Part shown: piece after piece, positions 3,034-33,760 of the stretch
Layout: each line of letters begins with the position of its first letter
How positions within the stretch are numbered: the first letter of the stretch is position 1
Origin: a virus
Direction: 5' to 3' (one strand)
Virus record (IMG/VR): IMGVR_UViG_3300025133_009854
Coordinates: 1-48,749 of that record
Length of the DNA stretch: 48,749 bases
Made by a program: the position numbers and the translations under genes
The notes under the pieces: generated by a model
Told to the model about the DNA's origin: nothing
Databases searched by the model: none
Seen by the model: the letters and a program-made list of their open reading frames with translations, nothing else

Positions 3034-3672
3034 TCAATCCTCGCTAAGCTCACCGAGAAATGCATCTCTCCAATTAGATCTATCCCCGGAAGATCCTCCG
3101 CAGGATCTGCTATACTCATATGTAAAATCATCGCCATCTAGAATTGCCATAAATGGTAGGCTATATGAGCCATTTGCGGGGCATGCATTTATTATTCCGC
3201 TGAATGTCTTATTCCAGTTCGGATCAATAAGAACTCTTGCAGGATCTGCTTCGATCTCTGCAGCGTAGTCCATGCATTCCTCTAGCGATATGTCTGGGCT
3301 CCTGGCGTTATCTTGCCCCTCAATGATGTAATAGTCCCAATCGGCTTCTTCGCCCCCAGAAAGAATAAAATCATAAGTGAGACCTCTGAAATATCCCTTG
3401 CATGCTCCGCACCAAAATGCGCCGATTCCCAAGACTGTTAATTTCTTTTCTCCACAAGAAGACTGGATATTCACCCTGTCTCCATAGCAATTTATGAAAG
3501 TCTCGTCTGCGATCTGGTCGCCCACGTTGGTTCCCGTACCTAAAGGCTCACAAGAGTGCTCATTGGGTGGGGGCTGTGTTACAGGTGGATTGTTTCGTTC
3601 TTCGTTCGCTTTCTCTGTACCGCAAGCAGAAAGAACTGCAAAAGCTAAAAGTAATAGGTAGTTTTTAATCAT
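3034..3672 (-). CDS. Thioredoxin-fold lipoprotein (TlpA/peroxiredoxin-like)
   Basis: 212 residues from the ATG at 3672, which has GAGGAG 6 bases upstream; the ORF extends upstream without a site. A lipobox (LSAC, C17) follows a hydrophobic signal, then a Pro-rich linker. The core has VLGIGAFWCGACKGYF: a WCxxC redox motif (C88, C91) after a beta strand, as in TlpA/ResA-like proteins, and several further Cys residues. It probably acts on disulfides outside the cytoplasm, perhaps for the Cys-rich exported proteins elsewhere in the window; that link is inference. Confidence 0.8.
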   Translation of the reverse strand: MIKNYLLLLAFAVLSACGTEKANEERNNPPVTQPPPNEHSCEPLGTGTNVGDQIADETFINCYGDRVNIQSSCGEKKLTVLGIGAFWCGACKGYFRGLTYDFILSGGEEADWDYYIIEGQDNARSPDISLEECMDYAAEIEADPARVLIDPNWNKTFSGIINACPANGSYSLPFMAILDGDDFTYEYSRSCGGSSGDRSNWRDAFLGELSED

Positions 3673-3721
3673 GATGACTCCTCGCATAAATAAGTATGGA
3701 GAAGCCAAGCGTTAGAATGAT

Positions 3722-4306
3722 TTATTCATCATCCTCGTCGAGAAGGCCCATACTTTTAAGGTAGTTCCTCACCAGGACATTAACAGGAACCCCAGTGATG
3801 TTAGTGATCCAACTATCCGCTGTGAAGGGCTTATCGAGGTCGAGATTCTTCTCTGTCGCTGGCAGCCAACCAGACGGACGTCTTTTCGCTGCTTCGCGGA
3901 TTAACTCTTTTAGCTGTCCTAGTTTTATCTTCATCTTGCCTTCCTCGAACTTTGTAGGAGCATCCTGCATATCTTGACGCTTCCACTCCCTCTCGGTGGC
4001 GGTGACTTGTCGTTCAATATCACGTTCCCGTTCGGGGGTCTGATGAGACCGATCGTCCCCGGGGGCGTCGCCGAAAACTTGACTGTAGGCTTCATCACCC
4101 TCGGGATCAGGGATGTCCATCTTAAACATCACATCCAGTTTGGACTTTTCGTGCGGGTTGGTTATGATGATGGGGTCATCGTTCTGGAAGTTCCCGCCCT
4201 CTTCCTTGGGTGCACTGATCACCACATCCACAGTCCAAGGCTTGTTCGAGAACTGTGTCAAGCGTTCCCGTATCAGCTGTCTTAGCTGTGCTTCTGTGAG
4301 CTTCAT
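3722..4306 (-). CDS. N-terminal-motif protein with two copies of the motif
   Basis: 194 residues. It starts with the shared motif (MKLTEAQLRQLIRERL) and carries a second full copy near residue 124 (MKIKLGQLKELIREAA). The region between is acidic and looks disordered. The C-terminal 60 residues (PFTADSWITNITGVPVNVLV..YLKSMG) may fold. The second copy begins with Met, so the gene may be a fusion of two family members or have an internal start. ATGA overlap with the upstream gene. Function unknown. Confidence 0.75.
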   Translation of the reverse strand: MKLTEAQLRQLIRERLTQFSNKPWTVDVVISAPKEEGGNFQNDDPIIITNPHEKSKLDVMFKMDIPDPEGDEAYSQVFGDAPGDDRSHQTPERERDIERQVTATEREWKRQDMQDAPTKFEEGKMKIKLGQLKELIREAAKRRPSGWLPATEKNLDLDKPFTADSWITNITGVPVNVLVRNYLKSMGLLDEDDE

Positions 4307-4629
4307 CTTCTTTCACTTTTCTTATAGCTTAAGTAATCCATGTCGTCAATGAACTTCTTAATTTCGCCCACTGCCTCGTCTTTACTTTTCCAGACGCGCT
4401 CGCCGAGCCTGTCTCGGATAAAGTCTTTAGTAATCTCCTTGTAGCCATACTCCAGGCCCCGATGGTTTTGATCCAGGTATTCTTCTAACTCGAAGATTGT
4501 TGGGCCGGATCCGTAACCTGATCCTCTCACATTAGATGAAGCATGACCACCCATACTTCCCCCGCCGAAAGTATACTCATTGAGCTCCTCGCGGATGATC
4601 TGTTGTAATCTGGCGCTTGTGATTTTCAT
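4303..4629 (-). CDS. N-terminal-motif protein, Gly/Ser-rich linker
   Basis: 108 residues from the ATG at 4629, which directly starts the motif MKITSARLQQIIREEL. A Gly/Ser-rich linker follows (about 20-45), then a helical domain (FELEEYLDQNHRGLEYG ... KKFIDDMDYL). An upstream in-frame ATG at 4659 would overlap the preceding gene and displace the motif, so it was not used. No family recognised. Confidence 0.7.
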   Translation of the reverse strand: MKITSARLQQIIREELNEYTFGGGSMGGHASSNVRGSGYGSGPTIFELEEYLDQNHRGLEYGYKEITKDFIRDRLGERVWKSKDEAVGEIKKFIDDMDYLSYKKSERR

Positions 4630-4633
4630 GTTA

Positions 4634-5029
4634 TTATCTGTCACCCGCTGCTTGGGCATCTAACTCAACTTCTTCATCGCCCTCGCTGTGGAGTTTTTGT
4701 GCTTCCTCTATGGCGATCAATATCTCTTCTGCTTCAGTTGCACCACCCATCATTCTAAGTGGGCGAGCCAGTCTTTCCATTGCTAGATCAAGAGCATTTG
4801 GGTTTACTTCGTATGCTGCTTCTTTGAATCCATCACTGTCATCGCCATGATTATAATATGCTGAAACAATCTGATCAACTTGTTCCTGCACAGCTGTGCC
4901 AAGTGATGCGTAAGCCTTTGCAAAGTCTATAAGCTCTGAGCCTGTTTCAACTGCCATTCCCCACGATTCATTTATGTGGTTCAATTCTTCCTGAATGATC
5001 TGTTGTAGTTTTCTTTTTGTGATTTTCAT
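4634..5029 (-). CDS. N-terminal-motif protein, helical
   Basis: 131 residues starting MKITKRKLQQIIQEEL; AAGGG lies 7 bases upstream. The rest is predicted helical and acidic, rich in Ala, Glu and Asp. No catalytic motif. Member of the cluster between 1 and 6974 in which unrelated bodies share the same first 16 residues. Confidence 0.75.
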   Translation of the reverse strand: MKITKRKLQQIIQEELNHINESWGMAVETGSELIDFAKAYASLGTAVQEQVDQIVSAYYNHGDDSDGFKEAAYEVNPNALDLAMERLARPLRMMGGATEAEEILIAIEEAQKLHSEGDEEVELDAQAAGDR

Positions 5030-5039: not shown

Positions 5040-5615
5040 TTACATTGAGTCCATTATGAAGGCGCGCAGTTGGTCCTCGTCATCGAAGTGCCAGAGCAGC
5101 TCATCCCACTCATCTGCCTGAAAGTGGTGTTGAGCGGAATCCGCAAGGTCGAAAGCAACAACATCTATAGGATATTCTTGATCGCCTGCAGCGTGATCTG
5201 CTTCCCAACCTCTGGCGGCATCATCTGCCCACTTACGAAGGCGTTCTTTTAGGCTGTCGATGTCCAGTCTTTCTTGGTCGGTCTGATCTGCAGCGCGTTG
5301 CTTCTCACGCTCTGGTCTATCATAGACATCATCGATGTGACCCTCAAGCTTTTCGAAATCAGCGCTGCTAAGTTCGATGCTTCGTTCAGTTCCGTCTTTG
5401 TCATCGCCTCGAACGGACAGACTAAGCTTTTCGATAAACTCATCGGCTTTAGCGGCAGGTATGCCTCTTTTAGTTCCCGCGCCGATGTAAAGCACCTCGC
5501 CGGTTTCTACATCAACGATATCAATTGTGTCCAGGTCGTTGTCAGCTTGCTCGCCAAGAACTCGTGTGAGCTCCTCCTGGATGATTTGCTTAAGTTTGCC
5601 TGCTGCGATTTTCAT
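5040..5615 (-). CDS. N-terminal-motif protein, acidic
   Basis: 191 residues from the ATG at 5615 (AAGGAG 6 bases upstream), starting MKIAAGKLKQIIQEEL. Next comes a small beta segment (IDIVDVETGEVLYIGAG), then long acidic helices rich in Asp, Glu and Arg, and a Trp/His-rich acidic C-terminus (WDELLWHFDDEDQLRAF). An upstream in-frame start at 5663 would overlap the previous gene and lacks a site. Function unknown. Confidence 0.75.
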   Translation of the reverse strand: MKIAAGKLKQIIQEELTRVLGEQADNDLDTIDIVDVETGEVLYIGAGTKRGIPAAKADEFIEKLSLSVRGDDKDGTERSIELSSADFEKLEGHIDDVYDRPEREKQRAADQTDQERLDIDSLKERLRKWADDAARGWEADHAAGDQEYPIDVVAFDLADSAQHHFQADEWDELLWHFDDEDQLRAFIMDSM

Positions 5616-5625
5616 TTTAATCTCC

Positions 5626-6345
5626 TTATTCGTACCCGAAATCTTTAGCAGTGCCAACGGCACGTGTCATAATAAAATCTTCACTGTATTCTTCGACAGC
5701 GCGTTCAACCCAGCTAGGACGACCACGCTTTGTGTATTGCTCAGGGCCTACCTTAACCATGATGATATCTCTAGCGACTTCCTGTGCAGAGACTTGACCT
5801 TCTGCAGCACTGACTGGGAAATCTTCGAGTGCTTTCGTCATCAATTCGTCAAAATCATCAAGCGCTGATCCTGGGGCTGCTCCGCTGTCAGTTCCTTGTC
5901 GGGAACCTTCCAGTTCAATTTCTCGCACAATATCAGCTATGGATTTTGTCATTGGGACGTTGCGCTCAAGGATATCCTGGACATCTTGTCCGTATTCTTG
6001 CTCGTCTTCCTTGCTTAGCTTCCCAGAAGTATAAGCTTCCAGCCCAAGCATAATGACGTCTAACACTAGTCCCATATTCTCAGATTCAGATTCAGCTTCT
6101 GTTCTTCGATACGATGTTTCAGATAAAGAGCCGAGCTCCTCTTGAATCATTTGTCTAAGCTGTCCTGCTGTGATTTTCATGGTTGATTCTCCAATTTCTA
6201 TTGCGGCGATTTGCCCTTGCATTTTCTTTTTACTTGTATGACAAGCACGGTGCTTCTTGCCTTTTTTATCTGTGTAAGTGAGCACATATTTGCCCAGGTC
6301 GCCGTCTGACTGTTTGCATTTCTGTGTATGCTTCTTGTAGGGCAT
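5626..6345 (-). CDS. N-terminal-motif protein with extra basic N-terminal domain
   Basis: 239 residues. The first 55 form a basic, Cys-containing module (KYVLTYTDKKGKKHRACHTS) like small phage 'KGKYVLY..KGK..' domains. The shared motif MKITAGQLRQMIQEEL then starts at residue 56. Both the ATG at 6345 (GAGG, spacing 8) and the internal ATG at 6180 (GGAG, spacing 8) have ribosome-binding sites, so two products are possible. The remainder is acidic and helical. The internal start may be the ancestral one. Confidence 0.75.
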   Translation of the reverse strand: MPYKKHTQKCKQSDGDLGKYVLTYTDKKGKKHRACHTSKKKMQGQIAAIEIGESTMKITAGQLRQMIQEELGSLSETSYRRTEAESESENMGLVLDVIMLGLEAYTSGKLSKEDEQEYGQDVQDILERNVPMTKSIADIVREIELEGSRQGTDSGAAPGSALDDFDELMTKALEDFPVSAAEGQVSAQEVARDIIMVKVGPEQYTKRGRPSWVERAVEEYSEDFIMTRAVGTAKDFGYE

Positions 6346-6461: not shown

Positions 6462-6974
6462 TTATCGTAATCTCGCACTCCGTCTCCGCCTGGAACCGGT
6501 GTTTGAGCAGCGCCTCTTCGTCCTGTTTGGTGTGGCTTTCAGTCGCTGCGGGTTTGGATCAGACTCCGCCTGCTCGTTTACATTCTCATTTCTTCTCTTG
6601 GAAGGTGTTACATGTCCAGGCAAGCTTTTTCGATGCTTTGGTTCTTTGGCCTTATGGCCTTTAACCTTCTGTCCAAGCTTTGCTAGATTTTTTAATTCTT
6701 TGTTGGTGATCTCGCCGCTATACAAAGCCCATGCTGCTCCACCATAACTCTTTATCTTTCTCTCAGCTGCTTTTCGAGCTTTTCCTCGCTTCATGCGAGC
6801 AGAGTATGCGATTCCAGCAGCCATTTGTTGAGCTTGAGATTCTGTGGATCCTTGCTCCCGGTACGGCGGTGGCCCGTCTGTCTTTGAAGCAGACCGAGTT
6901 GATGACTTTCTTTTCTCTTGAAGTATCAGCTCTTCTCGAATGATAGCTTTAAGCTCAGAGAGTTTAATTTTCAT
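6462..6974 (-). CDS. N-terminal-motif protein with DUF3008-like region
   Basis: 170 residues from the ATG at 6974, starting MKIKLSELKAIIREEL. Residues about 48-125 (QAQQMAAGIAYSARMKRGK, WALYSGEITNKELKNLA, LPGHV) follow the pattern of DUF3008-like phage proteins. The C-terminus turns into an Arg/Ser-rich run (RRCSNTGSRRRRSARLR) that looks out of frame; other minus frames over 6401-6560 are open and read more naturally, so a frameshift near the end is possible. Confidence 0.6.
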   Translation of the reverse strand: MKIKLSELKAIIREELILQEKRKSSTRSASKTDGPPPYREQGSTESQAQQMAAGIAYSARMKRGKARKAAERKIKSYGGAAWALYSGEITNKELKNLAKLGQKVKGHKAKEPKHRKSLPGHVTPSKRRNENVNEQAESDPNPQRLKATPNRTKRRCSNTGSRRRRSARLR

Positions 6975-7050
6975 GGCAGGCCCTTCCCCTTCAATACAAT
7001 CTAACAAACAATAAATATCACTTATCGCTCATAAAAGATCGTTTGGAGAT

Positions 7051-7275: not shown

Positions 7276-9177
7276 TTAATCTCCGCCGGATTCGATATCT
7301 ACTGCATGTTCAAAATCTGATTTTTCATCTATAACACCTACTGGGGGTATTTCTTTGTCGCCCTCAAAAACCCATCGGATCTCTTCGGCGTCAATAGTTT
7401 CCTTCTCCATCAAGCTCTCAGTCATGAAATCAATCTTGTCCTTGTGTGTAACTAAAATGTGTTTCGCATCTCTAATACAAAGATCGATGATCTTGCGAAT
7501 CTCATCGTCCAGCTGCTTAGCTGTCTCGTCACTGCACTCACTTCGCCTAGACATTGCCATCTCACGACCCAAGAACACATTCTCATTTCCTGATCCCATA
7601 TAGATGGGTCCAAGAGACGACATGCCGAAATCTCGGACCATGCGTGATGCTATTTGTTTAACTCGCTTTAAGTCATTGGAGACACCTGTGGTTGAGCCTT
7701 TTTCACCGTAATACATGCGCTCAGCCAGATATCCGCCAAGAAGAACTTTAATTCGATCTTCGTATTCCTGCCAAGTTGAAGAGTACTTATCTTCCTCGGG
7801 TAGCTGCATGGTTAATCCGAGCGCTCGGCCGTGAGGAATAATCGTCACTTTGTGAAGAGGATCAGATGACGATGTGTAGTAAGCAACAACCGCATGACCC
7901 GCTTCATGACGAGCAGTAGCAAGCTTTTGCTCTTCAGACATTGCCATAGATTTTCTTGGTGCGCCCATCGTAATCTTGTCTCTTGCTGTTTCAAAATCCT
8001 GCTGGCCGACTCTGTCGGCATCTCGTCGGCCGGCCATAAGTGAGGCCTCATTGATAAGATTTGCTAAGTCAGCTCCTGAAAATCCGGGGGTAGATTTAGC
8101 AACTATCTTTAGATCAACAGCAGGATCAAGAGGCACATCTTTTGCGTGCACATCGAGGATCATTTTGCGACCCTTGATATCGGGTAGAGGTACTACAACT
8201 TGACGATCGAATCGGCCAGGCCGAAGAAGCGCGGGGTCTAAAACATCTGGGCGGTTAGTTGCTGCAAGAACAATAATACCGCTATTATCTTCAAATCCAT
8301 CTAGCTCAACCAGTAACTGATTTAATGTCTGCTCTCGCTCATCATGTCCGCCACCCATGCCGGCGCCTCGTTGTCGACCGACAGCATCGATCTCGTCGAT
8401 GAAAATAATACAAGGTGCATTTGCTTTAGCTTGAGCGAATAAATCTCGAACTCGGCCGGCGCCGACTCCGACAAACATCTCGACAAAATCCGACCCGGAC
8501 ATACTGAAGAAGAATACATTAGCTTCGCCAGCCACAGCTTTTGCAAGAAGTGTCTTTCCTGTGCCTGGGGGGCCCGATAGCAACATGCCGGTGGGCATTT
8601 TACTGCCCAGCTTATAATACTTCTTTGGATTCCGGAGGAAATCGACGACTTCCTCTAAGTCTTCTTTTGCTTCATCGCACCCTGCAACATCTTTAAAAGC
8701 AGTAGTGTTAGATCCTGGAGGGATTATTTTGTGCTTGCTTTTGTTAAAGTCCATTGCTTTGCCCTGGTTCTTTCCCATGCTCTTAATGAACAAAAAGAAG
8801 ACGCCAAAGATGAGAATGAAAGGCAGGATATTGATAATAAGCGCCCAGAACATGTTCGGTCGAACTTGAGGTTTAATTATAAGTCTCAATCCCGGGTGAT
8901 GCTTTTGAGTCAGCTCCAGCAAATTCTCAGTAATGGGACCAACTGTTATCAACACTCTATCTATTTCAGGTTGATTCAATTCCCACTGGTCCCCTTCGAT
9001 CGTGAGAACAGCGGGAGGGTCAGAGTTCTCTGGCAGATCTTGAATAATCTTCACCATCTCTGTATAACTGATCTTTTCTTTTTGTACTTTCACCCCTTGG
9101 GGAAATGAGATCAGCGCAAAAATACACAAAAATGCTGCGAGCCAAATAAGCCAAGTTTTAGATCTAAAAATTTGCAA
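7276..9177 (-). CDS. ftsH: FtsH-type ATP-dependent membrane zinc protease
   Basis: 633 residues, full length for FtsH. TM1 about 9-25, an extracytoplasmic domain to about 105, TM2 about 110-132. The AAA module has Walker A GPPGTGKT (202-209), pore loop MFVGVG (234-239), Walker B IIFIDE (257-262) and [21 protein letters not shown] (308-325). The M41 protease has HEAGH (424-428) and a third ligand, D502 in SNDLKRV. All catalytic residues are intact. Start is TTG at 9177, with GGGAG 9 bases upstream and no in-frame ATG until codon 41. The family degrades membrane and regulatory proteins; a phage copy may remodel the host membrane. Confidence 0.97.
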
Positions 9178-9243: not shown

Positions 9244-9672
9244 CTAATTTTGAAGTATTTCTCGAGTTTCAACGAGGCTAATAAGTGAAGCCTGGGAAGA
9301 AATTCTTCCTCCTGCGCGATAAGACCCAATACTGATTACAAAAAATTTATTTTCTGGGAGAGGGTCGCCGTTAGACTCACAACAAAATCTAACTTTTACT
9401 TCGTATTCTTGACGTGTTCCCGGCATGGAGGTTCTGTCTATAACAGTTATTTCTGGACGATCATTAGCAGCAGCCCTTAAATCTTGAGAGTAAAGATTCA
9501 GTGCCATAAAATGATTTAATCCGCTTTGAGCAGAAATTTTTGCTAACGTGTGACGACGGGCGTTTCCCGAAATAAGTGCATTGTCTCTTGCTGACGCCCA
9601 CAACACTGCAGAGAAAGAAGATATAATTACCAGCATCATCATGGTGATAATAAAAGCGAAACCTTTTCTCAT
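9244..9672 (-). CDS. Type IV pseudopilin-like protein (PilX/GspK-like)
   Basis: 142 residues. The N-terminus MRKGFAFIITMMMLVIISSF is a prepilin signal: a short basic leader, Gly before a likely cleavage site, then an unbroken hydrophobic helix. Glu at mature position 5 is absent, as in GspK-like minor pilins. The following NARRHTLAKISAQSGLNHFM resembles the PilX 'A..AAE.GL' helix. The C-terminal domain is beta-rich with a CC pair. Its start overlaps the upstream secreted protein (ATGA). A role in a pilus or surface tip is inferred from the signal only. Confidence 0.7.
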   Translation of the reverse strand: MRKGFAFIITMMMLVIISSFSAVLWASARDNALISGNARRHTLAKISAQSGLNHFMALNLYSQDLRAAANDRPEITVIDRTSMPGTRQEYEVKVRFCCESNGDPLPENKFFVISIGSYRAGGRISSQASLISLVETREILQN

Positions 9673-10040
9673 GGATTAATTTGCATGTTAAGGATAAAAT
9701 TTTGTCTTCTGACATTTCCTTGGTTTGGGCCGGCGCCGGACCTAGCATCAATTACAGGAAAATTTTTCTTGACCCACTTCTGAGTTTTGGCAGCGCATCG
9801 ATCTTCCCCATACCCACCACGTACACACATTGACTCAGTCGCTTTTACAACTTCGCAAAAACATCTCATTTGATTGTCTCGCCACTGCTCTGGGGAGTAT
9901 CGGTAGATTACTCCTCTCGGAACTCTTGTATTAGTTCCAGGTAGATACTTGGAGCATACAATTTCAGATTCTGGATGAAAGAATGGCAATCCTGTTGCCA
10001 AAAGAGTTGATGTTATCAATGTTATCAGTTTAAGTCCCAT
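9669..10040 (-). CDS. Small secreted Cys-containing protein coupled to the pseudopilin
   Basis: 123 residues. A Sec-type signal peptide (MGLKLITLITSTLLATGLPF) is followed by a region with five Cys, including CFC. No known domain recognised. Stop and start of the pseudopilin gene overlap (ATGA), so the two are made together. It could be a pilus-associated or periplasmic partner. Confidence 0.65.
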   Translation of the reverse strand: MGLKLITLITSTLLATGLPFFHPESEIVCSKYLPGTNTRVPRGVIYRYSPEQWRDNQMRCFCEVVKATESMCVRGGYGEDRCAAKTQKWVKKNFPVIDARSGAGPNQGNVRRQNFILNMQINP

Positions 10041-10076: not shown

Positions 10077-10247
10077 CTAATAAGGGCAAAGGACTGAACT
10101 GTGTATTACTCGTATCGTTCCTTCGAAGTCTACTTCATACTTGTCATCGCCGATTTGCTTTACAATTTTTCCATACGTGCAGAAAAGCGGAACAATCTCC
10201 CACACATCGCAGACGACAAGATGATTTGGATAGAACTTTTGTTTCAA
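10077..10247 (-). CDS. GDLV-family small protein (56 aa, TTG start)
   Basis: A gene overlooked by length cut-offs. TTG at 10247 overlaps the stop of the upstream gene as TTGA. The product reads KQKFYPNHLVVCDVW..., then YGKIVKQIGDDKYEVDFEG and IHSSVLCPY, the same strand order as GDLV proteins (NHLVV in place of GDLVV). No strong ribosome-binding site, so translation is probably coupled. Confidence 0.65.
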   Translation of the reverse strand: MKQKFYPNHLVVCDVWEIVPLFCTYGKIVKQIGDDKYEVDFEGTIRVIHSSVLCPY

Positions 10248-10444
10248 TTTTCTACTGACTTTAGTTCATCTTTAGAAAACTCTAAAACTTTACCATCTAT
10301 CAAGATCATATATACATCAGGTTCGTCACAAATCTCAGATAAAATGACCCCAGATTTTCCAACTAATTTTTTAGATTCTTTTAATAGAAATCCCGGGTAA
10401 TGATCAGGGAACGGTCGCACTACAACAAGATCACCCAGTTTCAT
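10244..10444 (-). CDS. GDLV-family small protein (66 aa)
   Basis: Starts MKLGDLVVVRPF. A middle strand GKSGVILSEI and a hairpin VYMILIDGKVLEFSKDELKSV close the domain. Typical family member, 1 base after the upstream stop. Function unknown; the domain is probably a small SH3-like barrel. Confidence 0.75.
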   Translation of the reverse strand: MKLGDLVVVRPFPDHYPGFLLKESKKLVGKSGVILSEICDEPDVYMILIDGKVLEFSKDELKSVEN

Positions 10445-10445
10445 C

Positions 10446-10742
10446 TTAGGATTCTTGCAAGCGCTTATGTGTGTGTTGTTTTCTCAGCGCTAGAATACCT
10501 TGAGTAAGATTTCCGATGAAGATGTGCCCGCAGATAATCCCGAAAGCTAACCAGTCAGCATGGACGGCTAGCATGTAAAGCGCGGCGATGGCACCGGTAC
10601 CAAAGTACCAGAAACAGGCTGGTACATTGATTGCATCAGCAGTTGGTGAATCTACAATTGCTTTGATTACCGGATAGTACCAAAAATAATTTAGCACTTG
10701 AGTCACAACATACAAGCCTATCAAGAACTCAATAGCAGTCAT
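10446..10742 (-). CDS. PQ-loop/SemiSWEET-like membrane protein
   Basis: 98 residues with three hydrophobic segments (about 3-22, 43-62, 67-86). Between TM1 and TM2 lies VIKAIVDSPTADAINVPA, matching the SemiSWEET/PQ-loop pattern (Q-V-x-K-x-x-K/S-x-x-A-x-x-I-S/N-x-P). The protein at 24870-25148 is a paralog with the same loop. SemiSWEETs are half-transporters that dimerise to move sugars; the substrate is unknown here. ATGA overlap with the upstream gene. Confidence 0.7.
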   Translation of the reverse strand: MTAIEFLIGLYVVTQVLNYFWYYPVIKAIVDSPTADAINVPACFWYFGTGAIAALYMLAVHADWLAFGIICGHIFIGNLTQGILALRKQHTHKRLQES

Positions 10743-10951
10743 TGAACCTTTTTTCTATTTCGAATATGGCCGATTTGATGAATCTGGACGTATTGTGCTC
10801 TTATCCTTCTTAGCTCACCTTCATGCAAGACAGTAACAATCTTCATGTAGGGCTTATACTCTTCAGTAATGATACCATACTTCCAATCCGTCAATTCTTG
10901 GGTTCGATGATTAATGATATCTCGAAACCGAACCATGTCACCTTCTCTCAT
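10739..10951 (-). CDS. GDLV-family small protein (70 aa)
   Basis: Begins MREGDMVRFRDI, then YGIITEEYKPYMKIVTVL and LRRIRAQYVQI, with a basic tail. GDMV replaces GDLV. Its stop overlaps the PQ-loop gene start. Confidence 0.75.
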   Translation of the reverse strand: MREGDMVRFRDIINHRTQELTDWKYGIITEEYKPYMKIVTVLHEGELRRIRAQYVQIHQIGHIRNRKKVQ

Positions 10952-10971
10952 TTAGATTATCCGCTCTTTTT

Positions 10972-11166
10972 CTAACTGGAAGAAATCATTCTAACAAGGT
11001 GTGCCGGAAAGTATTTCTTTTTTCCGTCAAATAGAATGTCATATGCTGGACATCTTTCAGAATGATATTCTTTTAAGATTACGCCGTATCTAGGCTTGTT
11101 ACATTTGAATTGCGCGAGAAGAAGAATCAAATCTCCTGGACAGGGACGATCAAGTTGATGATTCAT
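10972..11166 (-). CDS. GDLV-family small protein (64 aa)
   Basis: From the ATG at 11166: MNHQLDRPCPGDLILLLAQ, then RYGVILKEYH, YDILFDGKKKYFPAHLVRMI. Full family pattern. A longer in-frame start at 11211 would overlap the upstream gene by 62 bases and is less likely. No clear ribosome-binding site for either. Confidence 0.65.
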   Translation of the reverse strand: MNHQLDRPCPGDLILLLAQFKCNKPRYGVILKEYHSERCPAYDILFDGKKKYFPAHLVRMISSS

Positions 11167-11341
11167 CGCATAGTTCACAATCAAGTATGTGAATCCATTG
11201 AGGTTCTTCATTTATCAGCACCCAGCAAAATGATGCAGCAAAACCAGTATCTTCTAAAACTAGTCCGGCGCGACCTGAAAATACGCCGTCTAGGACTTTA
11301 ACTAGATCGCCTTTAACAAGACTAGGTGCTTTGCCGATCAA
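11150..11341 (-). CDS. GDLV-family small protein
   Basis: The region KGDLVKVLDGVFSGRAGLVL ... CWVLINEEPQWIHILDCEL is a clear family match. There is no ATG: candidate starts are TTG at 11341 (GAGG 5 bases upstream, used here) and TTG at 11371, which overlaps the upstream stop. Confidence 0.65.
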   Translation of the reverse strand: MIGKAPSLVKGDLVKVLDGVFSGRAGLVLEDTGFAASFCWVLINEEPQWIHILDCELCDESST

Positions 11342-11360
11342 TGCGTCCTCTCGTTCCTTC

Positions 11361-11693
11361 TCAGTTCTCAATCAGATCAAGTAGATCTTTTCTGATTCCT
11401 AAGACAACACCGTCTGAATCTCTGGTGTACCTAACATATTTGAAGCGCGATAAACTGTCGATCGTTTCTTTGGGCGCTTTGGGAAATAGTACCTTGGCTT
11501 CGATATCTGATTCTGTGATAACCCCAGTCCATGACTTGTGTTCTCGGCACGTAACTCTAGATCCGGGCACCCAGCCCTTGGGCGAAGGGGTGCTATCTTT
11601 TTGAGGTGTTTTAGCAGAAGTTTTGTCAGATGTTTTGACAGACACTTTCTTTTGTGCTGTCTTCTTTTTCGCTTTTTGTTTTTTCTTAGACAT
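11361..11693 (-). CDS. Lys-rich N-terminal arm plus GDLV-like domain
   Basis: 110 residues from the ATG at 11693. The first 40 residues are very rich in Lys, Ser and Thr (MSKKKQKAKKKTAQKK...), like a nucleic-acid-binding tail. The rest (PGSRVTCREHKSWTGVI ... YTRDSDGVVLGIRKDLLDLI) has the GDLV-family strand order. This suggests the family can be joined to a nucleic-acid-binding arm. Confidence 0.65.
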   Translation of the reverse strand: MSKKKQKAKKKTAQKKVSVKTSDKTSAKTPQKDSTPSPKGWVPGSRVTCREHKSWTGVITESDIEAKVLFPKAPKETIDSLSRFKYVRYTRDSDGVVLGIRKDLLDLIEN

Positions 11694-11874
11694 GCAAATC
11701 GTCACTCAAAACAAGATTGACTTCTTGCGATTCAAACCACATTTGTTGGCCTGCAACGAGGACTTGATACGCTTCTAAGTAATCGTCAAACTCTCTTCGA
11801 TCAATGATCATCGCCACTTGACCGTCAAATCCAGAATGACGTGAGTTAACAACAACTAGGTTTCCGGGTGACAT
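11686..11874 (-). CDS. GDLV-family small protein (62 aa)
   Basis: Starts MSPGNLVVVNSRHSGFDGQV, then AYQVLVAGQQMWFESQEVNLV. AGGA lies 6 bases before the ATG, inside the end of the upstream gene. Confidence 0.75.
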   Translation of the reverse strand: MSPGNLVVVNSRHSGFDGQVAMIIDRREFDDYLEAYQVLVAGQQMWFESQEVNLVLSDDLHV

Positions 11875-12146
11875 ATCTTTTCCTGGTCAAGGTGGTCCCA
11901 ATATTCCTCGAACGATGAATCATACCACCCCCGAACAATCTTGTTCATAACGAGAACATCGATGACAGGATTCCCTTCTTCATCTTCATAAACAGCAGTA
12001 ACCACGGCGGGCGTAAGCTCAGGAATGTTCAAGATATCCCCGTTGGCGTCTGCGCCGGTCCATTGTATTGGGCCTGTGGACGTATCGACCCACTCGGCGA
12101 ATCGTACGAGATCACCTGGTTTGAAAATCACCGACTTACCGGACAT
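11856..12146 (-). CDS. GDLV-family protein (96 aa)
   Basis: Longer member: MSGKSVIFKPGDLVRFAEW, then a 30-residue insertion with ILNIPELTPAVVTAVYEDEE and IDVLVMNKIVRGW. GGAGCG precedes the ATG. A TATAAT hexamer lies at 12169-12174 just upstream, but no matching -35 is visible. First gene after the T3SS-like cassette. Confidence 0.7.
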   Translation of the reverse strand: MSGKSVIFKPGDLVRFAEWVDTSTGPIQWTGADANGDILNIPELTPAVVTAVYEDEEGNPVIDVLVMNKIVRGWYDSSFEEYWDHLDQEKICHPET

Positions 12147-12168
12147 AGATAGCGCTCCGAACGCTCTA

Positions 12169-12570
12169 TTATACCTGGGTTTGTAGAGTTTGTTTTATGC
12201 CATCAGTTGCTTTTTCGACCACTTTGGAGGTCAGTTCTAGCTCTTGGCTGAACTTATATACGCCGGCCTGAATTGCTAGCAGTTCAGTAGGATTAAACTG
12301 TTTTCCAGAAGTTGCAAGCTTGATAATCTTGTCTAGCTTTCCTTGTCCGGACATGACGCTAGATAAAACTCTTGTTAGATTTGCATCTTTTGTCTTGTCT
12401 ACCCGGAGCTCCTGCTTGATCTCTGCGGTCTTTTGGGTGGAAGGTATATTATCCATCGATGCCGAAGAGGAAGTTTGTTTCAGAACATCTTGGAAGCTCT
12501 TGGGTGTACTCTGGGCTTTAACTGGTTGATTTGCTGTAGGCAGTTGTATGTTTAACCCTGAAATTTCCAT
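12169..12570 (-). CDS. sctI: Type III secretion inner-rod-like protein (YscI/HrpB/SctI family)
   Basis: 133 residues. The C-terminal 55 residues match the YscI/HrpB C-terminal domain: GKLDKIIKLATSGKQFNP, then ELLAIQAGVYKFSQELEL and TSKVVEKATDGIKQTL, with the family's NP-x-x-L-L-x-x-Q ... E-L-x-x-K pattern. The N-terminal half is Ser/Gln-rich and looks disordered, as is usual for SctI. In T3SS this protein joins the needle to the secretion machine. The two upstream genes end in needle-like helices, matching the needle-then-rod gene order of T3SS operons. TAATG overlap with the upstream stop. Homology is inferred from pattern recognition, not a search. Confidence 0.7.
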   Translation of the reverse strand: MEISGLNIQLPTANQPVKAQSTPKSFQDVLKQTSSSASMDNIPSTQKTAEIKQELRVDKTKDANLTRVLSSVMSGQGKLDKIIKLATSGKQFNPTELLAIQAGVYKFSQELELTSKVVEKATDGIKQTLQTQV

Positions 12571-13052
12571 TATCGAACGTTGTTAATTGCGTTCTTCGCA
12601 GTGTCGTGCTTGGTTTTCATCACGTTTGAGATCGTGCTAAATTGCCTGTTCTCACCCTGCATCTTGTTCTGGAGGGTTAGATACTGGAGGTTGAAGCTCA
12701 TCTGCATCTCTTGCATAGCTTTGGTTTGATCCATCAAGGTCTGCGTTGATGATCCGCCGGTTTGACCTGCAGGTGTATTTAAGCTGGGTGATTGACCTGG
12801 AACGTTCATTGTACCATTACCTGCGTAGTTGCCGATTGCTTCAGCTGCTTGACTTACAGTAGCATTGACAACTGATCCCCCTGGAACATAAGGTGCTGCA
12901 ACTCCGACCGCACCTGCTACTACTCCTGCTGCGTTTGATGCGCCCCGGCCGACCATTGCGCCGAAATCGTTTCTTGCAGTTTGGCGAGTGTGCATAGCTT
13001 CTGAGGTTATGCGAATTGAACCGCCGTTATTTAGTCTATTAATACCTGGCAT
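12570..13052 (-). CDS. T3SS needle-like (SctF-like C-terminus) extended protein
   Basis: 160 residues. The N-terminal two thirds contain a Gly/Ala-rich hydrophobic stretch (AAGVVAGAVGVAAPYVPGG) and a Pro/Gly/Ser/Thr linker. The final 33 residues align without gaps to the C-terminal helix of needle proteins PrgI/MxiH as I recall them, sharing Q-x-K, N, S-N-x-x-K, D, and the ending I-x-N-x-R (here ISNVMKTKHDTAKNAINNVR). Needle proteins are usually about 80 residues, so this is an extended form. AAGGA precedes the ATG. Could also be a translocator-like protein. Paralog at 13063-13881. Confidence 0.6.
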   Translation of the reverse strand: MPGINRLNNGGSIRITSEAMHTRQTARNDFGAMVGRGASNAAGVVAGAVGVAAPYVPGGSVVNATVSQAAEAIGNYAGNGTMNVPGQSPSLNTPAGQTGGSSTQTLMDQTKAMQEMQMSFNLQYLTLQNKMQGENRQFSTISNVMKTKHDTAKNAINNVR

Positions 13053-13062
13053 TTTATTTTCC

Positions 13063-13881
13063 TTACCGGATGTTTCTAATTGACGTCATGCTCATGTCGT
13101 GCATTGTCTTGAGAACATTAGAGATCAAATCATGCATCTCTTTGCGCTTATTCATAGCTTGCTGAATCTTGAAGTTGATAACTGATCTGCTGTGATCGAC
13201 ATCTCCTGCGGGTTTTCTGCCGAACATCGAACTACCTATGCCGCCGCCGAATGCCGAACCTAACTTTGATCCGATTGGGCCGCCAACTAATCCGCCCAGA
13301 ACTCCGCCGCCGAGCGTGACAGCCTTTGAAGCGAGAGATTTAAAGGCGCTCTTGATGCCGCCGAAGATCCCGCCTTTCTTCTTACTCTTCTTCATGGACT
13401 CATACTTCTTAATCAGCGATTTAAGCTCTTTCTCAGAATCGCGCATTTGTTTGAAGAGGAAAGCTGCCAGCATATCCTCGAAGGATGCTCCTGGGCCGAC
13501 TAGAGAATCCATGTCGCCGCCTTGCTTTTGAATCTGGCCCCTGAGAATGTTTCCGGCTGATGCGCCGCCGGATCTAATCAAGTTCATGATCTCACTGTCC
13601 ATTGCCCGAAGCGCAGATCCTAAGGTTGTACGTGCAGTATTTTGCGAGTAAGTGTGACCGCATTGCCGGCGGGATCTTGCAATTGCTCGGGAAGGCCTGC
13701 TTAAAAACTGCTGTGTGGTTTGACCGGAGAATAAGTCCTTCCAGTTTTGAACTGCCCCTGAGATGTTTAGGGTTGCTAGATCTACTTGGGCTCCTGCAAT
13801 ATCTCCGACTGCATCCGGATAACCGAGTTTGTCTAGTGTTTTGTTGAGCCGAGTTCCGAGCGAATTAATTCCAACTACCAT
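13063..13881 (-). CDS. T3SS needle/translocator-like protein with Gly-zipper segment
   Basis: 272 residues. The C-terminus (MHDLISNVLKTMHDMSMTSI then RNIR) shares the same S-N-x-x-K ... I-x-N-x-R ending as the next gene. Before it is a Gly-rich hydrophobic region (LGGGVLGGLVGGPIGSKLGS), preceded by Lys-rich helices (FKQMRDSEKELKSLIKKYES) that resemble a coiled coil. Coiled coil plus hydrophobic hairpin is the plan of T3SS translocators and of membrane-inserting phage proteins. GGAGG lies 9 bases before the ATG. It begins the three-gene cassette. Confidence 0.6.
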   Translation of the reverse strand: MVVGINSLGTRLNKTLDKLGYPDAVGDIAGAQVDLATLNISGAVQNWKDLFSGQTTQQFLSRPSRAIARSRRQCGHTYSQNTARTTLGSALRAMDSEIMNLIRSGGASAGNILRGQIQKQGGDMDSLVGPGASFEDMLAAFLFKQMRDSEKELKSLIKKYESMKKSKKKGGIFGGIKSAFKSLASKAVTLGGGVLGGLVGGPIGSKLGSAFGGGIGSSMFGRKPAGDVDHSRSVINFKIQQAMNKRKEMHDLISNVLKTMHDMSMTSIRNIR

Positions 13882-13953
13882 GTTTGAGGACCTCCCGTTT
13901 GTGTATGTCCTATATCTATTACCGGTAGTTTTACGGAAAAGTTTCCTCTTTTT

Positions 13954-14175
13954 TTAGTTTTTTTTTGTTTTTGTTGGAAAATCAACGGGCTGGAAGCCTT
14001 CTTTGAGTAGCTCTAGTTCGTCTTTTTCAGCATATGCTCTGCGACCATCGTCGTACAAAACTTCAAATTCCCAGTAATAAGTTACTGAATCTGTGTCTGT
14101 CCAGTATATATCTTTCTTGATGATCATCCCGGGTCGAAATATCGAGTAATCGTAAACCAAGTCACCGACTTTCAC
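13954..14175 (-). CDS. GDLV-family small protein (73 aa, GTG start)
   Basis: MKVGDLVYDYSIFRPGMIIK, then YYWEFEVLYDDGRRAYAEKDELEL and a Lys-rich tail. The GTG start overlaps the upstream stop as GTGA. Confidence 0.75.
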   Translation of the reverse strand: MKVGDLVYDYSIFRPGMIIKKDIYWTDTDSVTYYWEFEVLYDDGRRAYAEKDELELLKEGFQPVDFPTKTKKN

Positions 14176-14477
14176 GAGACCACCAGAACCTTTGCAAGAA
14201 TGTGTGTCCTGTTTTCGTCTACTGCTCTTTGCAATCTGTGATGCCCATCAAGAATGCTCTGGATCTCTCCTTCTTGCTCTATCGCGATGATCGGAAAAGA
14301 TAAGTCTGCGGTTTCCTTCCGATGCTGTTCAATAATCACGTTAGATATCAGGGTTAATGGTTCGACTTCTAGCAAAACAATCGGCTCATCTTGCAGTGCT
14401 GCCAGAACATCTTGGATTGTTACTCTGTTTCCTTTTTCATCTTCCCAGAATGTTTTCTCCCAATCACTTAATTTCAC
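14172..14477 (-). CDS. ParB/sulfiredoxin-fold-like protein
   Basis: 101 residues from the GTG at 14477, which overlaps the upstream stop (GTGA) and has GGAGGT 5 bases upstream. The C-terminal half (FPIIAIEQEGEIQSILDGHH then RLQRAVDENRTHILAKVL) has the ParB/Srx core D-G-x-H-R, which in ParB contributes to nucleotide binding. There is no HTH domain, so it is not a full partition protein; single-domain ParB-like nucleases or regulators are common in phages. Lies among GDLV genes. Confidence 0.7.
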   Translation of the reverse strand: MKLSDWEKTFWEDEKGNRVTIQDVLAALQDEPIVLLEVEPLTLISNVIIEQHRKETADLSFPIIAIEQEGEIQSILDGHHRLQRAVDENRTHILAKVLVVS

Positions 14478-14662
14478 GGGATCACCTCCAAGGTCCACCA
14501 AGGCGGGTCAAAATGACCGAAGGTCCATCTTCCGCCCTCGCTGTAAAAAATTAACGGACACGATTTCGATAGGATCGGGTAGTCCTCATCGCATATATAC
14601 ACGCCGCGGGCGATACAATCGTCATCTCTAGAAATTATTCTAACGAGGTCACCTGGCTTCAT
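14474..14662 (-). CDS. GDLV-family small protein (62 aa)
   Basis: MKPGDLVRIISRDDDCIARG, then LIFYSEGGRWTFGHFDPPWW. Family member with a Trp-rich end. Overlaps the previous gene by 14 bases; its own end holds the ribosome-binding site of the ParB-like gene. Confidence 0.75.
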   Translation of the reverse strand: MKPGDLVRIISRDDDCIARGVYICDEDYPILSKSCPLIFYSEGGRWTFGHFDPPWWTLEVIP

Positions 14663-14831
14663 TGACTACTTCAATTGTCCATTGGTTGTCAAAATGGTGT
14701 ATTTCCCCCTTGAAGAAAACAGTCGTTGATCGCCCAGAAAAAGGATCAGTCCACGCATCGTAAAGATAGATTCCGATCCCGAGGTTGTTGTCATCGAATC
14801 CAACAATGCTGACAAGATCACCAGCGTTCAT
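14649..14831 (-). CDS. GDLV-family small protein (60 aa)
   Basis: Start at the ATG at 14831 (ATGA overlap with the upstream stop): MNAGDLVSIVGFDDNNLGIG, then TTVFFKGEIHHFDNQWTIEV. Very similar in layout to the next gene product. Confidence 0.75.
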   Translation of the reverse strand: MNAGDLVSIVGFDDNNLGIGIYLYDAWTDPFSGRSTTVFFKGEIHHFDNQWTIEVVNEAR

Positions 14832-15157
14832 ACAGCTTCCTTTAGCTCGTCGTATATCTGTTGAACTACATCTGCTGGGACCCATCCAGCGACATTATCA
14901 TACTCATCCCAGAACTTAGACCAGGGCTTCTTCTTCATGTCTGTCTCCATAGACGGGTTCAACCAAGCAGAGTCATTTGAAAGAAGTGCAATCTCAAAGG
15001 TTTCATAATCGTAAGGTAGTAAATTATCAGCTCTTGGTGAACAATAATTTTGAGAGCTGGCGACAACTGAAAGCTTCATTCCGCCTCGGAGATGCAGCTG
15101 GGCGTGGCACTTTCGCATTCCTGGGCGCAACATATAGTTTCTAAAATCATCTTTCAT
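14828..15157 (-). CDS. Conserved phage-type hypothetical protein
   Basis: 109 residues from the ATG at 15157, overlapping the upstream gene by 11 bases. The core MRKCHAQLHLRGGMKLSVVA, then SPRADNLLPYDYETFEIALL and VAGWVPADVVQQIYDEL, resembles a common phage protein of unknown function with an L-x-L-R-x-G-M-x-L-S-V-V strand. Longer in-frame starts reach 15226 but would overlap more. Confidence 0.65.
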   Translation of the reverse strand: MKDDFRNYMLRPGMRKCHAQLHLRGGMKLSVVASSQNYCSPRADNLLPYDYETFEIALLSNDSAWLNPSMETDMKKKPWSKFWDEYDNVAGWVPADVVQQIYDELKEAV

Positions 15158-15344
15158 CGATTGCTTCAAGCTGGCTTTTGAATATCCACCATCGCCCAGT
15201 AGTAAAGAGTACAAGTGCATGCTCATAGCCGACTTCGTCTTCTATGATATCAATCACAATTCCAGGGGACTCAGGTACAGAATTATCCGCCAGCCCAAAT
15301 ACTTTGCTGCTGTCCCTAAGCGCGACCAAGTCCCCGGGCTTCAT
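15147..15344 (-). CDS. GDLV-family small protein (65 aa)
   Basis: MKPGDLVALRDSSKVFGLAD, then PGIVIDIIED and HALVLFTTGRWWIFKSQLEAI. ATGA overlap with the upstream stop. Confidence 0.78.
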   Translation of the reverse strand: MKPGDLVALRDSSKVFGLADNSVPESPGIVIDIIEDEVGYEHALVLFTTGRWWIFKSQLEAIDER

Positions 15345-15529
15345 TTGTCTGGCTCTTCTTTCACAGGAATAAGACTATCTATTCTCTCTTTTTGGCATAG
15401 AAGTCCCCCAGTAGTTAAAACCCACATCACGGACACAAAATTTTTGTCATCGTGTTCGCGAACAACTTCGCCCCAGGCAAATAGAATATCTGCTCCGGTT
15501 TTTGGCTTTACTTTTGTCCCTACATTCAT
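15341..15529 (-). CDS. GDLV-family-like small protein (62 aa)
   Basis: MNVGTKVKPKTGADILFAWG, then VSVMWVLTTGGLLCQKERID. GTKV takes the place of GDLV. The ATG at 15529 has GGAGG 10 bases upstream; a TTG at 15538 overlapping the upstream stop is the alternative. Confidence 0.68.
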   Translation of the reverse strand: MNVGTKVKPKTGADILFAWGEVVREHDDKNFVSVMWVLTTGGLLCQKERIDSLIPVKEEPDK

Positions 15530-15534
15530 ATTTT

Positions 15535-15822
15535 TCAACCCTCCGAAAGTGAGCAGTCTACGCTGGTTCTAGGTTGCTCAATATAGATCTCCTTTTGACG
15601 CCTCGTCAAGCTTTTAAATCTATATTCAGCTTTAGAGGCGGTGGATCTGTCATAATAATTATCTGAGAAGATTAGGTTTACTGGACGTCTTGACCTGGTG
15701 TATTTTGCCCCTCTTTTAGACTCATTATGCTCTTTTACTCTTCTGGCTAAGTCTGTGGTGATCCCTGTATAGTAAGTGCCGTCGGCACATTCTACTACGT
15801 ACATGTACCAGTCATCGCTCAC
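15535..15822 (-). CDS. GIY-YIG nuclease domain protein (UPF0213-like)
   Basis: 95 residues, GTG start. The single GIY-YIG domain is clear: WYMYVVECADGTYYTGITTD then LARRVKEHN, GAKYTRSRRPVNLIFSD and ASKAEYRFKSLTRRQKE (candidate Arg and Glu of the active site). Size and form match stand-alone UPF0213/YhbQ-like proteins. Such proteins may cut DNA or process repair intermediates. It interrupts a run of GDLV genes. Confidence 0.9.
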   Translation of the reverse strand: MSDDWYMYVVECADGTYYTGITTDLARRVKEHNESKRGAKYTRSRRPVNLIFSDNYYDRSTASKAEYRFKSLTRRQKEIYIEQPRTSVDCSLSEG

Positions 15823-16165
15823 TGACTACCTCTAAGTCTTCTCTGTGTATGTAGAACTTCTGGCCTGTTCGTGGGCAAGCAAGATAAGCGCACTTGGGAA
15901 TTCCGTTGCCCCAACCAACTCGAGCATGTGCTCGAGCTCTGAGCACTAGGAATGATTCGCCCACTTTGAGATCAATCCACCGCGTTTGAGGAGCTAGCTT
16001 GGGTTCGCCGGAACTGTCGTGCCACGTAGTGAGCCCAGCATGGATATCACGAGTTAGTTCTTTTCGCCACTCTTCTTGTTCTTGCTGTGTCGTAGATCGG
16101 AAACCCGTAACATCTCCATACTTGTGGACTACAGCTTTCACCCTTACAAGATCACCTTTTTTCAC
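15812..16165 (-). CDS. GDLV-family protein, extended (117 aa)
   Basis: Starts MKKGDLVRVKAVVHKYGDVT (GTG start, GTGA overlap). It has a helical insertion (QEQEEWRKELTRDI) and an R-H-A-R segment before the closing CPRTGQKFYIHREDLEVV. Longest member with a simple GDLV start. Confidence 0.7.
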   Translation of the reverse strand: MKKGDLVRVKAVVHKYGDVTGFRSTTQQEQEEWRKELTRDIHAGLTTWHDSSGEPKLAPQTRWIDLKVGESFLVLRARAHARVGWGNGIPKCAYLACPRTGQKFYIHREDLEVVSER

Positions 16166-16353
16166 TTTGTCTTATCTTCTTTTTTGTATCCCGGGGTTTG
16201 AGATGCAGTTAGTTTTACAAGCTTTCTTAAAATACCTGACGCTAAATCATCATTTTGAGTAATGGTTGTATCTGGTAAGCGGTGGTTCGCATATTGAGCT
16301 ACGGCATGCCAGCGCAATATTTCATTACATTCTTCTTTGTTAAGCTCTATCAA
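16162..16353 (-). CDS. Small hypothetical protein (63 aa)
   Basis: Helical: ELNKEECNEILRWHAVAQYA, then LASGILRKLVKLTAS. TTG at 16353 is used because AAGGAG lies 9 bases upstream; TTG at 16359 is possible. Its stop overlaps the next start (GTGA). Function unknown. Confidence 0.6.
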   Translation of the reverse strand: MIELNKEECNEILRWHAVAQYANHRLPDTTITQNDDLASGILRKLVKLTASQTPGYKKEDKTK

Positions 16354-32983: not shown

Positions 32984-33760
32984 TTACTTGTCAGTAGGAC
33001 ACCACGCTGGGTGTATCCAGTTCTGCTCAGCACAGAGATTAGCCTCTAGACGATCTATGCTCAATACTGATATTGGCGTTGCATATACCATGCTTTCTAA
33101 GAGCTGCGGCACATATCCCCTTCCAACTGGAATGGCTACTAAGACGCCCACAAAATTTCCTTTTTTATCAAAAAATCCTGAACCTGAAGCTCCTGGCCAT
33201 CCGTACGTATGGACTGTAATCTTAGTTCTTCCACCTGATATCTTTTCTATTCCGGCGACGTCGCCGCGCAGCGTAAGCAAATCATGATGGCCTGGATAAC
33301 CGGAATAGGTAAGCGTTTCTCCAATTTCGGGCAAGGGAGAAGTATTTGTTCTAAACGGAACAGCAAGAATAGATTCCATCTTCTTAACCGCGAGGATGCA
33401 TACATCTTCCTCATTGTCAAAATAAACGATCCACCCTTTAGTTCTTTCTTTTTCAGGGGTTACTACCCACACATATGAATGATGTGATGCATCCACAACA
33501 TGTGCAGCTGTTACAACCAAGTATTGATCTTTGTAAGAGACGTATGTGCCGGTGCCTCGGCCGCTGCCCGGGGTAAATACTTTTACTGTAGCGTATCTAG
33601 ATCGAAGCTCATGCGGATTTAAAGTTTCGACTGGAGTAGCTTTTCCCCAGAACAACTCTTCTAAAACCTGCTTATCATTGTCACAAACTTGTGCTGGGCT
33701 GACTGCATTGCAGCTAGCTGCTAGAACAAAGAGCAAAGAATAAGATAGAAATCTATTCAT
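32984..33760 (-). CDS. Trypsin-like serine protease lipoprotein, second copy
   Basis: 258 residues. Lipobox AASC (C17). Triad: H87 in VVTAAHVVD, D119 in NEEDVCILAV, S192 in WPGASGSGF. Of HtrA-like fold without a PDZ domain. Convergent with the plus-strand operon; shares little sequence outside the motifs with the protease at 30092, so not a recent duplication. The 77-base gap to 32906 shows no clear terminator hairpin. Confidence 0.9.
   Translation of the reverse strand: MNRFLSYSLLFVLAASCNAVSPAQVCDNDKQVLEELFWGKATPVETLNPHELRSRYATVKVFTPGSGRGTGTYVSYKDQYLVVTAAHVVDASHHSYVWVVTPEKERTKGWIVYFDNEEDVCILAVKKMESILAVPFRTNTSPLPEIGETLTYSGYPGHHDLLTLRGDVAGIEKISGGRTKITVHTYGWPGASGSGFFDKKGNFVGVLVAIPVGRGYVPQLLESMVYATPISVLSIDRLEANLCAEQNWIHPAWCPTDK

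Follow-up and report, generated by a model that had tools for sequence, protein, structure and literature searches.

Phage-encoded minor pilins are already known. Lysogens of phage JBD68 make P-FimU, which replaces the FimU protein of the host and is thought to prevent infection by similar phages (PMC12826054). Phages also encode inhibitors of type IV pili such as Tip, Aqs1 and Zip, which act on PilB or PilZ; for Aqs1 and Zip, resistance to phages has been described (PMC11656802). In type IVb systems of bacteria, TcpF and CofJ are secreted partners that dock with a flexible end onto the cognate minor pilin (PMC9565799). GspK-type pilins lack the glutamate at position 5 (Glu5) and have a hydrophobic residue there instead, and extra XcpX, a member of the GspK family, results in fewer pseudopili (PMC5207764). 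Here we describe a pair of overlapping genes in a 48,749-base virus record (IMGVR_UViG_3300025133_009854, positions 1-48,749; this whole stretch is designated the window). The first gene encodes a probably exported protein with five cysteines, subsequently designated Cys protein, and the second one a minor-pilin-like protein lacking Glu5. The pair differs from P-FimU, which has Glu5 and an unrelated sequence and belongs to a phage forming lysogens, and from Tip, Aqs1 and Zip, which are phage proteins disabling the pilus, in that it consists of a pilin and an exported protein. We propose, and give it an even chance, that a tip-type minor pilin without Glu5 is put together with its tethered partner into a type IV filament of the host in order to cap, jam or mask it. 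The following features of the window are used throughout:

9244..9672, minus strand: minor-pilin-like protein lacking Glu5, with a PilX_N-type N-terminus and a predicted pilin fold (open reading frame (ORF) of 142 amino acids (aa))
9669..10040, minus strand: probably exported partner with five cysteines (ORF of 123 aa; four orthologues aligned)
9669..9672, minus strand: ATGA overlap of the two genes, from the sequence
9661..9672, minus strand: codons for MRKG, the putative leader, which is expected to be cut behind Gly4 (from the sequence; Gly4 invariant, K/R before the Gly in 4/4)
9379..9384, minus strand: codons of the vicinal Cys97-Cys98, the sole cysteines of the pilin-like protein (invariant in 4/4)
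9990..10040, minus strand: putative signal peptide of the Cys protein, approximately residues 1-17 (hydrophobic N-terminal segment in 4/4; hydropathy only)
9687..9707, minus strand: RQNFILN, conserved C-terminal segment of the Cys protein and candidate docking strand (R112, N114 and N118 invariant in 4/4)
7276-9177, minus strand: ftsH with a TTG start, 66 bases beyond the pilin gene
32984..33760, minus strand: trypsin-like protease (Pfam Trypsin_2, 66.0 bits), whose membership of the system is uncertain

The gene of the Cys protein precedes the pilin gene in all four distinct genomes that carry the pair, i.e. the window and three further records (G002, G003 and G006), and in each case the stop of the first gene overlaps the start of the second. 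The overlap comprises 4 bases in the window and in G006, where it reads GTGA, and is longer than 4 bases in G002 and G003, given the pilin starts assigned in this analysis. This arrangement suggests that synthesis of the two proteins is translationally coupled. A preliminary description of this DNA had reported a prepilin-type protein lacking Glu5, coupled through ATGA to a secreted Cys protein and located next to ftsH. The two ORFs, the overlap and the position of ftsH agree with it, the coupling itself being deduced from the layout.

The window pilin begins with MRKG↓FAFIITMMMLVIISSFSAVLW, that is with a basic leader, a Gly at the expected cleavage point (arrow) and a hydrophobic stretch, and it has Ile in place of Glu at position 5. 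The leaders of the four pilins read MRKG, MKEMAAQTLSLTSGPFRKRG, MQDETLSSISVHATKKG and V(M)KKRG, whereby K/R precedes the Gly in all of them, the K/R-G↓(F/M) site is conserved in 4/4 and residue 5 is hydrophobic throughout (I, I, V, V). In the G003 pilin, an in-frame ATG coincides with the mature N-terminus, and the leader exists only if a start further upstream is chosen. A class III signal peptide consists of a hydrophilic leader, with Gly or Ala as its last residue, followed by 20-25 mainly hydrophobic residues (PMC10191384), and all four orthologues carry such a peptide, given the starts assigned here. Hence, the motif for prepilin cleavage expected from the preliminary description is present. 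The mature proteins comprise 127-138 aa.

Similarity to the Pfam family PilX_N (PF14341) provides further support. The orthologues P0004, P0005 and P0008 score 32.9, 35.6 and 25.5 bits, respectively, so that three of the four pilins reach or exceed the curated cut-off (25.5 bits). In a genome-wide profile search the orthologues reached 35.0, 37.6 and 27.3 bits, all above the cut-off, and the window pilin 23.4 bits. PilX_N matches were also obtained in 10 of 14 control genomes, yet exceeded the cut-off in one of them only. The match extends beyond the membrane segment into a pattern of the type IAGN-xRR and A-xx-SA-xSG. The four pilins share the N-terminal 50 residues including this pattern, and the absence of Glu5, with the PilX class of type IVa pili. 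They differ from this class in being encoded by phages and in having a short head with a vicinal CC; moreover, they are paired with a small Cys protein rather than with other minor pilins and PilY1. A scan for prepilin-type N-termini covering 526 kilobases (kb) of five related records detected the window pilin and its three orthologues only. With identical criteria, whose thresholds were chosen after the window pilin had been seen, there were no matches in 103 viral loci lacking the pair (1,159,750 bases) and none in 5.26 Mb of first-order Markov sequence. When the criteria were relaxed slightly, a single JBD68 gene was picked up, which is evidently the known minor pilin of that phage.

AlphaFold2, supplied with an alignment of the four sequences, predicts for the pilin-like protein the "lollipop" fold of the type IV pilin superfamily, in which the helix packs against an antiparallel sheet. 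The prediction comprises a long N-terminal helix (residues 2-58) and a four-stranded pilin-type sheet (best model: predicted local distance difference test (pLDDT) 86.2, predicted template modeling score (pTM) 0.66). The predicted head is small and lacks an inserted helical domain. When VIA-align 2 was run on the list of matches produced by Foldseek, ranks 1-9 were occupied exclusively by type IV pilins or pseudopilins. The best match was the competence pilin ComZ (Z 9.1, root-mean-square deviation 2.4 Å over 91 residues), and PilA of S. sanguinis (Z 7.4, 3.5 Å, 98 residues) and the pseudopilins EpsI/EpsJ of the type II secretion system (T2SS; Z 7.2, 2.7 Å, 82 residues) were also among them; the lowest of the nine pilin rows was XcpVWX (Z 5.8, 2.6 Å, 69 residues), with XcpV among the matches. 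Chains of the GspK family are not named among the VIA-align rows, which excludes nothing. Thus, by sequence and predicted fold the 142-aa protein looks like a pilin, and its C-terminal part is predicted to form a pilin-type sheet, as the pilin reading of the preliminary description requires. The latter had also called the protein GspK/PilX-like. Of this, the PilX class and the absence of Glu5, which the four pilins have in common with the GspK family, hold, while a strict GspK assignment does not, since the inserted helical domain is missing and no GspK family of Pfam is found among the matches of the pilin proteins. The best match of the pilin profile to solved structures, a phage tail terminator (E 0.11), is at chance level, and a search of a viral structure library returned nothing at E≤0.001.

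The structural matches raise the question of the target. As ComZ, EpsI/EpsJ and XcpV are among the best of them, and overexpressed XcpX gave fewer pseudopili (PMC5207764), the pilin could be directed at a T2SS pseudopilus or competence pilus of the host rather than at a type IV pilus, for instance to halt secretion or the uptake of DNA in the course of infection. However, the N-terminal family match is PilX_N without any GspK family, and a host was not found. We consider this target unlikely.

The pair is conserved as a unit. Relatives of FtsH were fetched first (the best 80 of 150) and 86 loci were then searched with both proteins. The two genes were found side by side in G003 (locus L009 on a contig of 235,681 bases) and in G002 (locus L008, 73,526 bases); locus L010 encodes the same proteins as L008 and was counted as the same virus. 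A more distant pair was detected in G006 (80,615 bases) by profile search of whole records. A record of 35,142 bases is identical to the window over the stretch compared (~1.2-18 kb) and was therefore excluded as an independent case. In the three further distinct records the pilin is 43, 42 and 34% identical to the window copy, and the Cys protein 54, 47 and 33%. The profiles of both proteins match the same five of nine records (the copy of the window, G003, G006, G002 and its copy), and the genes lie side by side in all four distinct genomes carrying either of them. Two additional 11.6-bit matches of the Cys profile, in G002 and its copy, contain an internal stop and were taken as chance. A homologue of the trypsin-like protease is encoded directly upstream of the pair in G003 (212237-213103; its stop overlaps the start of the Cys gene by one base) and in G002 (50010-50837). 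The homologue in the window is unlinked to the pair, and G006 has none at E≤1e-5. Thus, the core unit is the pair of pilin and Cys protein, and the protease is optional. FtsH is encoded near the pair in 3/4 genomes, so that its proximity looks like general synteny.

The carriers of the pair are phages. In G003, PHROG matches identify genes for the terminase large subunit, portal, major head protein, tail sheath, baseplate wedge and DNA polymerase, and the window is largely collinear with ~196-233 kb of G003 in reversed orientation. No Phage_integrase match was obtained in the four records, which are possibly incomplete. When viral contigs were searched with each protein as query, only the shorter copy of the same contig was retrieved, and later profile scans added no genome. 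The pilin profile had no match in 48 further records, a set without a positive control of its own, and none in 49 more, in which the G003 control matched; in all, this profile was applied to the complete records belonging to 74 of the 80 FtsH loci, the exceptions being L080-L084 and L086. Likewise, the Cys profile matched none of 44 other records, the G003 control being detected. Absence of the pair from these records shows little, since many of them are short fragments and the terminase gene, for which 28 of the set of 48 had been fetched, is ~100 kb away from the pair in G003. Annotated phages yielded no match to the pilins P0001 or P0008, and plasmids none to P0001 or P0005. Three annotated-phage matches to P0005 (E 4-9) and one to the Cys protein P0002 (E 0.3; 32% over 48%) were disregarded. 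A 32-residue match of L073 to P0002 (E 0.007) lies inside an unrelated ORF of 508 aa and was unconfirmed by profile.

A short hydrophobic segment forms the N-terminus of the Cys protein, as judged from hydropathy and by eye, and the protein is probably exported by means of this putative signal peptide, in line with the secreted partner proposed in the preliminary description. In 4/4 orthologues it contains exactly five cysteines, one followed by a C-x-C-x9-C-x9-C pattern. The C-terminal segment follows the consensus R-x-N-(F/L)-(I/M)-(L/I)-N and is preceded by a G/N/Q-rich stretch in 3/4. The model of the single chain is poor (pLDDT 67.6, tail below 50), and matches of the Cys profile to solved structures (chemokines and others, E 0.33 and above) do not exceed chance level. 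The odd number of cysteines in the partner and the vicinal CC of the pilin leave room for a disulfide between the two proteins. Elsewhere in the window, a protein encoded at 3034-3708 (minus strand) has an N-terminus resembling a signal peptide, contains a WCGAC motif and appears thioredoxin-like by eye. It is 52 and 47% identical to homologues in G003 and G006, which show Redoxin and AhpC-TSA matches below the cut-off, with none for the window protein itself. This protein could serve disulfide formation.

Spanin pairs have a similar layout, with an anchored and an exported protein encoded by overlapping genes. The two proteins might accordingly form a membrane-anchored envelope complex with a borrowed pilin fold, e.g. 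for lysis or as inner-membrane scaffold, in which the pilin-like protein would remain an uncleaved anchor and the Cys protein would be its periplasmic ligand. Besides the gene layout, the neighborhood of FtsH and, in two relatives, of an exported protease would fit such a complex. Against it stand the K/R-G↓(F/M) site present in 4/4, the similarity to PilX_N continuing past the membrane segment, and the lack of a lipobox cysteine at the end of the signal segment of the exported partner, whose first Cys is found at residue 20-29 only. We regard this explanation as quite improbable. A spanin pair in the proper sense was rejected, given a partner without lipobox and an anchored protein with pilin-type fold and prepilin site.

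A phage-encoded tip subunit would rely on its host. Within the five related records, no prepilin peptidase, no N_methyl pilin, no assembly ATPase scoring above the cut-off and no prepilin-like N-terminus besides those of the pilin family were detected. A match to a T2SS ATPase in the window (12.1 bits) is located inside the ClpB-like gene and was rejected. As far as the records go, processing and assembly must therefore be supplied by the host. The phage pilin shares the hydrophobic residue 5 with GspK-type subunits and is proposed to belong to the tip class. According to our proposal, pilin and Cys protein would be made together from the overlapping genes. The pilin would be inserted in the inner membrane, where the prepilin peptidase of the host would cut the leader after the Gly. 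The Cys protein would be exported by the Sec system, become oxidized in the periplasm and dock on the pilin head, either through its conserved C-terminal segment or through a disulfide to the vicinal CC. The pilin without Glu5 might then act at the tip of a type IV filament of the host, be it a pilus, a T2SS pseudopilus or a competence pilus, or at the point where such a filament is initiated, thereby displacing the tip subunit of the host and presenting the Cys partner. As a result, the filament would be capped, stalled or masked, which most likely would keep further phages off or shut the filament down.

P-FimU of JBD68 provides the nearest precedent for a phage pilin. In record KY707339 it appears to correspond to jbd68_10, which is recorded as hypothetical and is the sole prepilin-like gene found there. 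As in the window, the phage encodes just one minor pilin, and the basic leader of this protein has Gly as its last residue. In contrast, jbd68_10 has Glu5 (FTLVE), matches N_methyl with 29.9 bits and belongs to PHROG 11596; a further one, PHROG 3433, is labelled "pilin". Similarity of jbd68_10 to the window pilin is not significant (BLASTP E 1.5; hhalign probability 5.3, E 0.0073 over 37 N-terminal columns). Thirteen Pseudomonas phage records including JBD68 match jbd68_10, nine of them over at least 80% of its length. The preliminary description had suggested that a phage may employ a minor pilin to block or alter its receptor. P-FimU lends this idea a precedent (PMC12826054), whereas for the window phage an action on the pilus is what we infer. 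The precedent also raises the possibility that function is kept: the phage pilin would replace a host minor pilin in working pili, with the Cys protein altering what is displayed at the tip. According to PMC12826054, pili are still assembled with P-FimU, and a small head without inserted domain would not obviously block a secretin. However, P-FimU has both Glu5 and N_methyl similarity, which the window pilin lacks, and JBD68 forms lysogens, whereas four of the present records gave no Phage_integrase match. We regard such a modification of the receptor as rather unlikely.

For the partner, TcpB-TcpF and CofB-CofJ of type IVb systems offer an analogy, as they combine a minor pilin with a secreted protein; here, the gene of the probably exported Cys protein is adjacent to the pilin gene in 4/4. 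However, TcpB and CofB possess Glu5 (PMC5207764) and an H-type-lectin-like domain 3, whereas the window pilin has neither Glu5 nor a large C-terminal region. Moreover, TcpF and CofJ dock by the N-terminus, while the conserved candidate segment of the Cys protein lies at its C-terminus.

Several observations weigh against a tip-type pilin with tethered partner. The AlphaFold2 alignment has four rows only, and the other four models have mean pLDDT values of 63-71. Foldseek gave no match at E≤0.001 with the pilin model; its top matches were actin-capping proteins, and the first pseudopilin appeared at rank 22 (E 0.15). In VIA-align the first unrelated row has Z 5.7, so that ranks 1-6 alone are more than 1 Z above it, and the program warns that Z below 8 (below ~13 for long helices) may reflect a common arrangement only. 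The window pilin itself remains below the PilX_N cut-off of 25.5 bits (22.3 bits by hmmscan). For the Cys protein, no relative outside the present group was found, neither a family nor a PHROG nor a fold rose above chance level, and contact between the two proteins is a proposal. G005, whose FtsH is 52% identical, shows neither of the two genes. Profiles detected no cellular relative of pilin or Cys protein in genome contigs, in a search that uses short exact patterns with single-sequence confirmation and misses remote PilX proteins. Finally, since the host was not found, its type IV filament is assumed.

Tip capping by a pilin and its tethered partner can be extended to a host-dependent two-protein "tip kit", in which the pilin would only start or cap a filament and the partner would be locked to it by donor strand or disulfide, yielding a phage-made tip on pili or pseudopili. 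We offer this extension tentatively. Among the articles listed in searches of a mostly open-access literature on pilins and phages, we found no filament-capping strategy for a phage, no PilX-class phage pilin and no phage pilin with a secreted partner.

The surrounding genes of the window were inspected as well. Three consecutive proteins encoded at 12169-13881 (minus strand) are 62-84% identical in G003 and G002 and belong to the most conserved ones of the window. The preliminary description had mentioned genes nearby that resemble a type III secretion system. However, the similarity of the first protein to the inner-rod protein SctI of such systems reaches only 17.5-18.1 bits in 3/3 homologues vs. 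a cut-off of 32.4 and was rejected. Mimicry involving such genes is therefore unsupported, which leaves the pilin-Cys pair as the only basis for the suggested theme of surface-appendage mimicry. Small proteins with a common K-x-G-D-L-V-like start, SH3- or KOW-like by eye, are encoded at 10077-17661 and also occur in G002, G003, G005 and G006. In addition to its own FtsH (7276-9177), the phage encodes DnaJ-, GroEL- and ClpB-like proteins (36026-37057, 40553-42151 and 45457-48054, minus strand; by eye and PHROG match), all four with relatives in G003 and G002. A predicted tRNA-Thr (42671-42747, minus strand) lies inside the 3' part of ORF 42607-43410, which is MutM/Fpg-like by eye. A protein with MopE-type metal-binding motif and a von Willebrand A match below the cut-off (31665-32906, plus strand) and a TIG-domain protein (22434-24692, minus strand) represent unusual phage cargo, whose origin looks cellular. 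Many proteins have a segment of the type M-K-I-T-x(4)-L-x-x-I-I-x-E-E-L at or near their start, as noted by eye:

774-1217, 3722-4306, 4303-4659, 4634-5029, 5040-5663, 5626-6345, 6462-7007 and 25145-25609, minus strand: proteins with M-K-I-T-type segment (by eye)

Such segments are likewise present in G003 (e.g. at 180110 and 189681) and G006 (13820, 14110), and could represent a capsid-targeting or cleavable cargo tag.

Taken together, retention of the pair in three other distinct phages suggests that these phages alter surface or secretion fibers of the host during infection. If our proposal is true, a second, unrelated family of phage pilins, of the tip class lacking Glu5 and equipped with a dedicated partner, would exist across divergent large phages, which would suggest more than one origin for the capping or re-tipping of host filaments, also outside prophages. 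The pair would also constitute a small natural two-protein reagent for the tips of type IV filaments, and its presence would hint that the hosts of these phages carry such filaments.
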